A stretch of DNA of 61,351 bases from Alphaproteobacteria bacterium (lineage in GTDB: Bacteria > Pseudomonadota > Alphaproteobacteria > Micavibrionales > UBA2020), in NCBI GenBank assembly GCA_030682495.1, contig JAUXOC010000047.1:1-61351 (forward strand), given 5' to 3'. The notes beneath the pieces were generated by a model. It did no database searches. It saw only the letters and a program-made list of their open reading frames with translations, and was not told the origin of the DNA. Position numbers and translations under genes: made by a program. Each line of letters begins with the position of its first letter. The stretch's first letter is position 1. Positions 44,047 through 47,290 of the stretch are shown here, piece after piece.

Positions 44047-45105
44047 TCATATGGCGCGTTTATATTGGCGAACAAGGGATATCAAAGCCGCGACATGCTC
44101 TGGCGGTGTTTCTTTGATGACCCCGTGGCCGAGATTGAAGATAAAAGGCCTGCCCGACGCGGCATCCATGATACGCGTAACAGCGCGCTGCATATCTTCA
44201 CCGCCTGTCAAAAGCAGTTGCGGATCAAGATTGCCCTGCAAGCAAATATTTTTAGGCATCGCTGAAATATCCGCTTGCGGGTCGAGGCCGAGAGCGGAAA
44301 TACCCGTCTGCCCTGCATAATCTGCATAGTGCCGTCCCGCCTGACGGGGAAAGCCGATGATGGGTACATCCGGATAGACCGCCTTGATAGCCGATACGAT
44401 GCGCGCGGTTGGCGCGATGATGCGGTCATGGAAATATTCGTCCGGCACAAGGGCAGCCCAGCTGTCGAATATCTGTACCGTATCCGCGCCATGCTTTATT
44501 TGCGAAATCAGATAATCCGCGGTGACGTCGGCCAGTTTGAGAAGAAATGTTTTGAAGCCCTGAGGATCGGCCGCGGCCGTTTCTGTCGCGCGCTCGAATT
44601 TTCCGCCGCCGCGGCCATGCAGCATATAACAAGCCACCGTCCATGGCGCGCCGGCAAAACCGATCAACGTCTTTTCGGGCGGAAGCTGTTCTTTGAGGCG
44701 TGACAGCGTTTCGTAAACCGGCGCAAGTTTCTGCTCGAAACCTGAAATGTCGAGCAGATCGAAGTCTGCGAGCGTTTCCAGCGGTGGCAAAATCGGTCCT
44801 TCGCCTTCGACAAAATCGAGACCTTGGCCAAGTGCATGCGGAATAACCAGAATATCTGAAAACAAAATAGCTGCATCCAGATCAAAACGACGAAGGGGCT
44901 GCAGCGTGATTTCAACGGCCATAGAGGGGTTATAGCATAGCTTGAGAAATGACCCCGCCTCGGCACGCAGAGCACGGTATTCGGGCAGATAACGACCCGC
45001 CTGACGCATCAGCCAGATAGGCGTGTACTGTGTGACCTGCCCGCGTAAAGCCTGAAGCATCGGTTTTTCTGAGGATAGATTATTCATAGATACCATTGTC
45101 TGCAT
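44047..45105 (-). CDS. hemE: Uroporphyrinogen decarboxylase
   Basis: 352 aa; in-frame ATGs at 45096 and 45087 are alternative starts. Converts uroporphyrinogen III to coproporphyrinogen III. Signature YTPIWLMRQAGRYLPEYRAL near the N-terminus, AILFSDILVIPHALG with the catalytic Asp, and GFPRQAGRHY. First of the hemE-hemH-hemJ run. Its upstream gap is the candidate replication origin, as in Caulobacter, where oriC abuts hemE. Confidence 0.97.
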   Translation of the reverse strand: MQTMVSMNNLSSEKPMLQALRGQVTQYTPIWLMRQAGRYLPEYRALRAEAGSFLKLCYNPSMAVEITLQPLRRFDLDAAILFSDILVIPHALGQGLDFVEGEGPILPPLETLADFDLLDISGFEQKLAPVYETLSRLKEQLPPEKTLIGFAGAPWTVACYMLHGRGGGKFERATETAAADPQGFKTFLLKLADVTADYLISQIKHGADTVQIFDSWAALVPDEYFHDRIIAPTARIVSAIKAVYPDVPIIGFPRQAGRHYADYAGQTGISALGLDPQADISAMPKNICLQGNLDPQLLLTGGEDMQRAVTRIMDAASGRPFIFNLGHGVIKETPPEHVAALISLVRQYKRAI

Positions 45106-45612
45106 GCTTCTTTATAAGCCATGCCGGAAAGACATCCAATATAAAGAAAAGATATATAAGAAGGTTGTAGAAGCAGTAGGCCTGCGGATTATGGGGATAA
45201 AAACGTTTCAAAGCTTTTGCCCACAGCCCTGCCGCACTTTAGAGAGGGTCACTGTATATAAAACGCGGGAAAAAATGAATTTAGGTTTTTGAATCAAGGT
45301 TATTTTATGCTGTGGAATATGGGGATAAAATGTGATTCCGTGAAATAGACTTATCCCCGCTTTTCTATTCCGGAGTCCCTGCGGGGATGCATGGACTCAT
45401 CATTCAGGTGTTTATCCCCTGCCGGTAGCATGCGCAGGTTTCACGGCAAACCATCCGCAAACTTATACAGCCTATGTCCACAAACCATATTGTGGGGCGG
45501 CTCTCTTGCAGGACAGATTGTACTTGATCGAGCGTTCCGGCTTTTCTTCGCGGCGGAATGCCGATAGGATAATGTCTGTGCTGAAAAACATCTTGGATCG
45601 GGGCAAGGGTTG
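45106..45612. other. oriC: Candidate chromosomal replication origin (oriC)
   Basis: 507-bp non-coding gap next to hemE. Near-DnaA-box 9-mers: TTATCCCCA (minus, 45192-45200 and 45320-45328), TTATCCCCG (45351-45359), TTATCCCCT (45412-45420), plus weaker TTGCCCACA (45217-45225) and ATGTCCACA (45474-45482). An AT-rich stretch at about 45250-45330 could be the unwinding element. Four GANTC sites lie within 108 bp (45291, 45334, 45373, 45394). A GAGTCC / GGACTC inverted repeat spans 45373-45398. No perfect TTATCCACA is present. Confidence 0.7.
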
Positions 45613-46221
45613 ATGAGCGAAGACTGGCAAAAAATGGATATAGAGCGCGCTGCGCGCATTCTGTCTGAAGTTAATCCGGCGTTGGAGCCGGTACCCTTTA
45701 GCATGGAAACCACAACGATCCGCAGCCAGCGCCTGCCGTTTTACCGCGAGTATGATTTTTTAGAGCTGACGGATCTTTCCGCCGTTCCGGCGGCGCGTAA
45801 ATACGTCATCTACAAACCGGGTGACGTGAATGTCATCAACTGGACAAACGAGGCCATATACAACACGAACGAAAAAGCGCCGATCAGCCTTGATGCGCGC
45901 AGCGTTCTTGCCTACGTCAAATTCTTTTTCGGGTACGTGCGCGGCCGTCACGGGCGTTTTTTAATTATCGAGACAATTGACGATATTCGCTGGCAGATCG
46001 AACCGCCGCTGCAAGGGCGCAAGGTTATGCAGCAGATGCTGGAGCCTGTCACCCTGCTGGAACAGGAAGAAGACGGCACGTTTATTCTCGAAGCCTTTAT
46101 GGTCTTCAAAGATTCTTTGTTCAAGACGCGCGTCAACGTCAAGACGGACGGACTTGTCAGTCTGTCCGACGAAGAACTTAAAATCGAAGGCATGCCTGTC
46201 CTTCAGGATTACGCGGCGTGA
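45613..46221 (+). CDS. Hypothetical protein beside the origin
   Basis: 202 aa from the ATG at 45613; the codon before it is a TTG in frame. Soluble, no signal peptide, mixed alpha/beta pattern (LPFYREYDFLELTDL, KYVIYKPGDVNVINWTNEAI, GRHGRFLIIETIDDI). No family recognised. It occupies the place where many alphaproteobacteria carry the DUF299 kinase-phosphatase gene to the right of oriC, but it does not resemble that protein. One base separates it from the next gene, so the two are cotranscribed. Confidence 0.65.
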   Translation: MSEDWQKMDIERAARILSEVNPALEPVPFSMETTTIRSQRLPFYREYDFLELTDLSAVPAARKYVIYKPGDVNVINWTNEAIYNTNEKAPISLDARSVLAYVKFFFGYVRGRHGRFLIIETIDDIRWQIEPPLQGRKVMQQMLEPVTLLEQEEDGTFILEAFMVFKDSLFKTRVNVKTDGLVSLSDEELKIEGMPVLQDYAA

Positions 46222-46222
46222 G

Positions 46223-47290
46223 ATGACGCCTGTGCCGCTGCCCTTTTTCGATCCCCCCGCCGCGCGGGAAGCCAAACCGTCTTTTGATTTGTTGCCGCCG
46301 GAAATGCGGCAGAAAATTGAGGCCCGTCTGTCGGGCGAAATTATTTCAGGCGAGGTGGTTTACGGTAGTCTGTCTTCTTCGGCGGGATATGTTTTGACTT
46401 TTGATAGCGGCCTCAAAGTCTTCGCCAAAGGTAGCCACCCCGACGAAATGTCGCATGGCACGCTGCATATCCGGCAAGAAATCCGTGCCTATGAGTACGT
46501 GCCCGTTTTAAAAGAGACCTCGCCGCGACTTTACAGCTGGGTTAGTGACAACAACGAGGACGGCTGGACGCTGGGTCTTTGGTCATTTATTGCACAGGAT
46601 GATTCAGCGGATTTCGCGCAGCGCGTTTCCGGCGTGATGGCGCTTGTGGCACAGGTTCATGGCGCGGCCGTGCCCGAAGGCATCGTTCCTGACGCGCGGG
46701 CGCACAACTATATCGGTGCTTTTCTGGCAGATGAAAAAAAATGGCGCCGCATCGAAGCTGAAGCAAGCATTCGCGCAAAGTTTTTGAATCTCTTTGAAGA
46801 CCCCGCCGCGGCGCAGGCCTGGCTTGGGCGAAACATCGCCGCGCTGATCGCGCTGCAAGCAGATGCCGCGGTGCGCGTTTTTACGCAGGGGCTGATTCAC
46901 GGCGATCTGCGCACGGATAATATTTTATTTGACAAAGACCGCAGCTGGTTGGTGGATTGGCCAAATGCTTGCATGGGTCCGCGTACCTTTGATCTGGTTA
47001 TGCTCTTCACACACCTTGAATCCACCGGGTTTGGTGCGGCGGAAAATTTTCTCCCTTTATATGATGCAGCGGCTGGCACGCGTTTTGCGACGTCGGAGAT
47101 AGATGAGATCGCAACCATGGCCGGTAGTATGGCCGGATATTTCGCCGATCAAGCTTACCGCGGTGTGCCAGAGAAGTTGCCGCGGCTGCGCTGGATGCAA
47201 AAATCGTTGCTATGCGCGCAGTTACAGCTGTTGGCGCGGCTTGGGCGAATCGAATCACCCCCCCGCTTTTCGGGGCAGCGCGATATTTGA
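46223..47290 (+). CDS. Aminoglycoside phosphotransferase-family kinase
   Basis: 355 aa from the ATG at 46223; the frame is open further upstream but that overlaps the preceding gene. Protein-kinase-like fold of the APH/choline-kinase family: catalytic HGDLRTDN (His226, Asp228, Asn233) and metal-binding DWP (Asp245). Such kinases phosphorylate small molecules or proteins; antibiotic resistance cannot be inferred. The 5' end sits 1 bp after the 202-aa gene, suggesting joint function. Confidence 0.85.
   Translation: MTPVPLPFFDPPAAREAKPSFDLLPPEMRQKIEARLSGEIISGEVVYGSLSSSAGYVLTFDSGLKVFAKGSHPDEMSHGTLHIRQEIRAYEYVPVLKETSPRLYSWVSDNNEDGWTLGLWSFIAQDDSADFAQRVSGVMALVAQVHGAAVPEGIVPDARAHNYIGAFLADEKKWRRIEAEASIRAKFLNLFEDPAAAQAWLGRNIAALIALQADAAVRVFTQGLIHGDLRTDNILFDKDRSWLVDWPNACMGPRTFDLVMLFTHLESTGFGAAENFLPLYDAAAGTRFATSEIDEIATMAGSMAGYFADQAYRGVPEKLPRLRWMQKSLLCAQLQLLARLGRIESPPRFSGQRDI

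Follow-up and report, generated by a model that had tools for sequence, protein, structure and literature searches.

Does the gap at positions 45106-45612 of the window (the whole stretch of DNA analysed, 61,351 nucleotides) hold the origin of replication of its chromosome? An earlier note, made from the sequence alone, had read it as a probable oriC, and this reading is borne out: with a probability of about 0.94, chromosome replication in a Micavibrionales (Alphaproteobacteria) genome starts in this gap, at an origin in hemE-type position. The assignment is strongly supported by features observed directly, namely a cluster of sequence elements of the DnaA-box type, rare in the rest of the genome, a basal unwinding system (BUS) module, conservation throughout the order and, in relatives, a GC-skew switch at the corresponding gap. 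The locus is almost certainly a well-formed case of a known origin type, in a Micavibrio-like relative of the predatory bacterium, and it locates the start of replication in an order with many uncultured, Micavibrio-like members. What is modestly new is the class-wide use of boxes with a C at position 7 (C-type) and the order-conserved neighbour coding for a 202-aa protein; the origin is otherwise ordinary. Literature searches found no DnaA binding or initiation experiments in this organism, no paper joining Micavibrio with oriC or "DnaA box" with TTATCCCCA, and, for TTATCCCC together with DnaA, only unrelated human-gene papers.

DnaA boxes and unwinding module beside hemE

The gap is bounded on the left by hemE (uroporphyrinogen decarboxylase, 44047-45105, - strand; PF01208, E 2e-113; TIGR01464, 367 bits against a cut-off of 303), which starts at 45105 and confirms the boundary originally proposed, and on the right by the divergent 202-aa gene (45613-46221, + strand). 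The GC content of the gap is 0.456, compared to 0.564 across the window, and the AT-rich segment previously noticed is found in its central part, at 45256-45310 (74% AT over 45256-45305).

The four near-DnaA boxes described in both orientations are real. TTATCCCC occurs at 45193 and 45321 on the - strand and at 45351 and 45412 on the + strand; read as 9-mers, the four sites are, in order, TTATCCCCA, TTATCCCCA, TTATCCCCG and TTATCCCCT, so that the final base is variable too. Predicted box 1 (45192-45200, -), the one proximal to the trios described below, corresponds to a position that is mostly C-type order-wide; box 2 (45320-45328, -) is identified by sequence and alignment. Box 3 (45351-45359, +), inverted relative to box 2 and 30 bp from it, is kept in 17/17 family rows, 10 of them C-type and 7 A-type, while box 4 (45412-45420, +) is found again only in the two congeners. 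The hexamer TCCCCA, known as W-box, is contained in the two - strand sites, at 45192 and 45320, whereas the final A is replaced by G in box 3 and by T in box 4.

The weaker boxes are also present, and four are listed here. TAATCCGCA (box 1b, 45183-45191, -), supported by sequence and alignment, lies in tandem with box 1. The same arrangement joins TATTCCACA (box 2b, 45311-45319, -) to box 2; several relatives have TTATCCACA or CTATCCACA in place of TATTCCACA. On the + strand, TTGCCCACA (45217-45225) corresponds to a TT...CACA-type sequence in many relatives, and ATGTCCACA (predicted box 5, 45474-45482) to TTATCCACA or TTGTCCACA in many of them. Most aligned gaps share the inverted pair of boxes at a distance of about 30 bp, together with a + strand box about 123 bp further on.

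Such a density of sites is not a general property of the genome, as it should have been if the motif were equally dense everywhere: TTATCCCC is found 63 times in 2,520,700 bp (0.012 expected per 507 bp), i.e. four times within the 507 bp of the gap and 59 times in the other 2.52 Mb. The Poisson probability of four or more sites in 507 bp is about 8e-10, or about 4e-6 once multiplied by the number of genome windows. Outside the gap the window contains a single further TTATCCCC, and the mean over 100 shuffles of the window is 0.94. When 507-bp slices were moved along the window by 100-bp steps, DnaA-like 9-mers peaked over the gap and just to its left.

Only one other close pair of TTATCCCC sites was observed genome-wide, inverted, 74 bp apart and placed in the interval that separates a porin-like gene from the next one (contig C86, 6472-6553, corresponding to L032:2473-2554). 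On another contig (C89:31000-35000, L033), where the surrounding translation looks repetitive, 2.3 kb contain four equally oriented TTATCCAC sites.

The clearest feature of the gap, absent from the earlier note, is a complete module for unwinding on the - strand. Between 45200 and 45162, in the direction of that strand, it consists of the tandem boxes TTATCCCCA and TAATCCGCA, a GGC spacer and the trios CTA-CTG-CTT-CTA-CAA-CCT (CTACTGCTTCTA, 45162-45179), followed toward hemE by an AT-rich tract (45139-45161), the putative unwinding side, whose TATATA-rich position is kept in relatives. None of 1000 sequences obtained from the gap by Markov shuffling reached the combined score of boxes, spacer and trios. 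A pattern for the module, built as an order consensus, had a single match in the 2.52 Mb genome, at the gap, with no mismatches (two were allowed); the pattern was informed by the gap sequence itself, and the evidence is therefore its uniqueness, not the match.

In published basal unwinding systems, tandem DnaA boxes are followed by a short spacer and by DnaA-trios (PMC8287927). The module contains the elements by which such systems are recognized, i.e. DnaA boxes, a spacer no longer than 16 bp and at least three trios with A in the middle (T on the strand of the boxes). As in Bacillus subtilis and the relatives predicted to share its system, trios of the 3'-GAT-5' type and an AT-rich side are present, and the 12 bp that separate the trios from the first box fall within the published peak of 10-13 bp (PMC8287927); unlike in B. 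subtilis, the outer box is the C-type TTATCCCC and not TTATCCACA. Modules of this kind are found beside hemE in many Micavibrionales, with CTACTACTA at the trios in relatives: examples are TTATCCCCG-tgacgcacagccc-CTACTACTATCTACAACC (L198) and TTATCCCCA-tgactcatgccac-CTACTACTCTCTACTACC (L188). A simple trio scan of 40 class-level hemE gaps revealed CTACTA tracts in only two, which limits the support for the module, as defined here, to the order. Within Alphaproteobacteria, it represents an unwinding module readable beside hemE in all its parts, boxes, spacer and trios.

From this arrangement we infer DnaA binding and an opening site within 45106-45612. DnaA-ATP would first fill the box array, made of the tandem pairs 1/1b and 2/2b on the - strand and, on the + strand, of boxes 3 and 5. 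The majority of these boxes are weak, W-type variants, and their occupancy would hence require high DnaA-ATP and cooperativity. A DnaA filament could then grow from the tandem pair at 45183-45200, over the GGC spacer, onto the single-stranded trios at 45162-45179, and open the AT-rich tract at 45139-45161 toward hemE, leading to helicase loading.

The C at position 7 of the boxes

The earlier note had explained the consistent replacement of A by C at position 7 with a lineage-specific shift in DnaA sequence preference. All four of the strongest sites in the gap are C-type, and TTATCCCC is found 63 times genome-wide versus 24 for a reversed control, as such a shift would predict; it is nevertheless very unlikely, since TTATCCACA is enriched too (22 versus 3) and is kept at other places of the genome, the region upstream of dnaA included. 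The recognition helix of the encoded DnaA, GGRDHTT, is the one found in E. coli and B. subtilis, and domain IV around it matches the E. coli structure 1J1V. In addition, TTATCCAC and TTATCCCC interchange at aligned sites among relatives: the two congeners and other relatives carry TTATCCAC at some of them, and the two congeners have TTATCCACG at their leftmost box.

C-type boxes are moreover spread class-wide. The 600 bp beside hemE were analyzed in 40 Alphaproteobacteria of a class sample, drawn from the better hemE matches; in several of them, simple criteria for boxes and trios revealed little. We counted 29 TTATCCCC sites in 22 genomes and 26 TTATCCAC sites in 17, whereas a control stretch located 650-1250 bp away contained one and none, respectively. 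Standard recognition helix, exchange of A and C among relatives and class-wide occurrence together led us to reject a DnaA specificity restricted to this lineage. Within the order, an informal count by eye of the outer boxes next to the trios, 37 of which were legible, gave about 29 of the C-type and 3 of the A-type; a count of 15 C and 7 A, obtained by automatic choice of the trio-proximal box, was excluded as evidence because that choice mixes outer and inner boxes.

The same change characterizes the W-boxes (TCCCCA) of Caulobacter, which bind DnaA very weakly (PMC4285127, PMC4468827); a known site of this kind also argues against a new preference. By analogy, the C-type boxes are likely to be weak sites tuned for cooperative loading. 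A wider reading, to which we would give slightly less than an even chance, is that C-type TTATCCCC is a class-wide, position-conserved part of hemE-type origins, selected to be weak beside the trios, so that firing would occur only at high DnaA-ATP. If so, the Caulobacter W-boxes would exemplify a rule valid for Alphaproteobacteria in general, and the C at position 7 would turn from an apparent oddity into a class-wide pattern, testable in Caulobacter and Micavibrio.

The C-type boxes are DnaA sites by prediction and occupy specific positions, such as the trio-proximal one; they might accordingly be bound by another alphaproteobacterial origin-binding protein and not by DnaA at all, an idea made barely credible by their exchange with TTATCCAC at aligned positions and by their match to a published weak DnaA site (PMC4285127).

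GC skew at the hemE gap and at dnaA

GC skew was evaluated around the orthologous gap in related genomes. In G033, which is complete and in a single contig, skew changes from -0.075 at 2580-2600 kb to +0.049 at 2600-2620 kb; hemE is located at 2601.6 kb, and the origin gap lies just to its left, at the switch. A switch at the gap is also seen in G021 (from -0.023 to +0.078) and in G028 (from -0.114 to +0.010), and a weaker change in the same direction in G015, G004, G005 and the window itself. In two family-level relatives, G003 (analyzed from 20 samples) and G013 (over the whole contig), the gap coincides with no clear switch.

Along the window, the skew at third coding positions takes, from left to right, the values -0.06, -0.09, +0.04 and +0.10, and the cumulative skew, calculated by simple 2-kb steps, has its minimum near 32 kb and not at 45 kb. 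The genome is a draft of 109 contigs, of which the window is one whole contig (C12), so that its own minimum cannot be placed exactly. The expected skew switch at the gap is seen in G033, G021 and G028, only roughly in the window itself, and not in G003 and G013.

In the three relatives with a clear switch, dnaA is found far from it, at 654, 262 and 359 kb, respectively, inside regions of uniform skew. The origin is hence at hemE in these genomes, an origin at dnaA being ruled out by their skew, and for the species under study the same position follows by orthology.

DnaA doubles as a transcription factor. That the boxes merely mark a DnaA-regulated divergent promoter of hemE and the 202-aa gene, with the origin elsewhere, for example at dnaA, where an exact TTATCCACA and two TTWTNCACA sites lie upstream within about 135 bp, is very improbable. 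It is opposed by the skew of the three relatives, which switches at the hemE gap and is uniform around dnaA, by the uniformly negative skew of the dnaA contig of this genome and by the trio module, an unwinding feature superfluous for a promoter. The sites upstream of dnaA (L001:702-844) are compatible with a possible autoregulation.

Lineage, neighbouring genes and cell-cycle signals

The loci carrying the 202-aa gene mostly belong to genomes named Micavibrio sp. or to MAGs named Alphaproteobacteria bacterium, and the nearest ones are from Micavibrio sp. UBA2020 and UBA8982. NCBI places the genus Micavibrio in Bdellovibrionota, but the titles of most related records read Alphaproteobacteria; in GTDB the order is named Micavibrionales. 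Of 61 related loci, 55 have hemE divergent from the 202-aa gene, across a gap of 326-618 bp, and the gene thus forms the right boundary across the order; the remaining 6 have no hemE within the stretch examined, and some of these stretches end near the 202-aa gene.

The likeness to Caulobacter and Rickettsia pointed out at first stands for hemE and fails for the other neighbour. As in the Cori of Caulobacter crescentus and the Rickettsia prowazekii ori (hemE/COG1806), the region is intergenic at hemE and includes several DnaA boxes and an AT-rich part (PMC1914354), and the weak TCCCCA sites of Cori are found here as well (PMC4285127). Unlike in both, the gene on the right is the 202-aa gene and not COG1806/DUF299, in agreement with the earlier note. 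At least 14 relatives have a DUF299 gene (PF03618) 3-6 kb beyond the right end of the gap (about 4 kb away in G028), and in them the 202-aa gene consequently sits between the origin and DUF299; in this genome DUF299 is on another contig (C61). DUF299 appears to have moved away in this family. Such a neighbour is no strict requirement, as the predicted Wolbachia ori lacks it (PMC1914354). Wolbachia and Ehrlichia origins (hemE/COG1253) similarly retain the hemE boundary with a changed neighbour (PMC1914354), although their right-hand gene is a different one and CtrA and IHF sites are predicted in most of their strains.

In contrast to the Caulobacter and Rickettsia origins, consensus searches of the gap found no TTAA-N7-TTAA CtrA site, no IHF consensus and no TGATCCACA G-box; CtrA sites vary among predicted hemE-type origins too (PMC1914354). 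GANTC, a possible CcrM methylation site, is depleted in the window (81 versus about 232 expected), yet four copies lie in the gap. Among them, GATTC at 45334-45338 is kept in 9/17 family rows, and GAGTC at 45373-45377 occurs as GAGTC or GAATC in 16/17; another copy starts at 45394. The genome encodes GcrA and a RAMA-domain (CcrM-type) protein, whose family was matched, among 14 control genomes, only in Caulobacter. Methylation of the GANTC sites of the array by this enzyme would probably help to tie firing to the cell cycle; we infer such a control of the origin.

The 202-aa protein has no match in Pfam or NCBIfam. Its AlphaFold model, a confident one (pLDDT 90.6, pTM 0.86), gave no PDB match at E <= 0.001 by Foldseek (best 0.056), and the best VIA-align hit, with a Z of 5.1 over 51 residues, perhaps reflects merely a common arrangement. 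A distant homologue (34% over part of the sequence) was found outside the Micavibrio group, on a Cognatazoarcus halotolerans contig (L199) with no hemE in the stretch examined. An APH-like kinase gene (46223-47290) adjoins the 202-aa gene in the window and is found near it in only 15 related loci.
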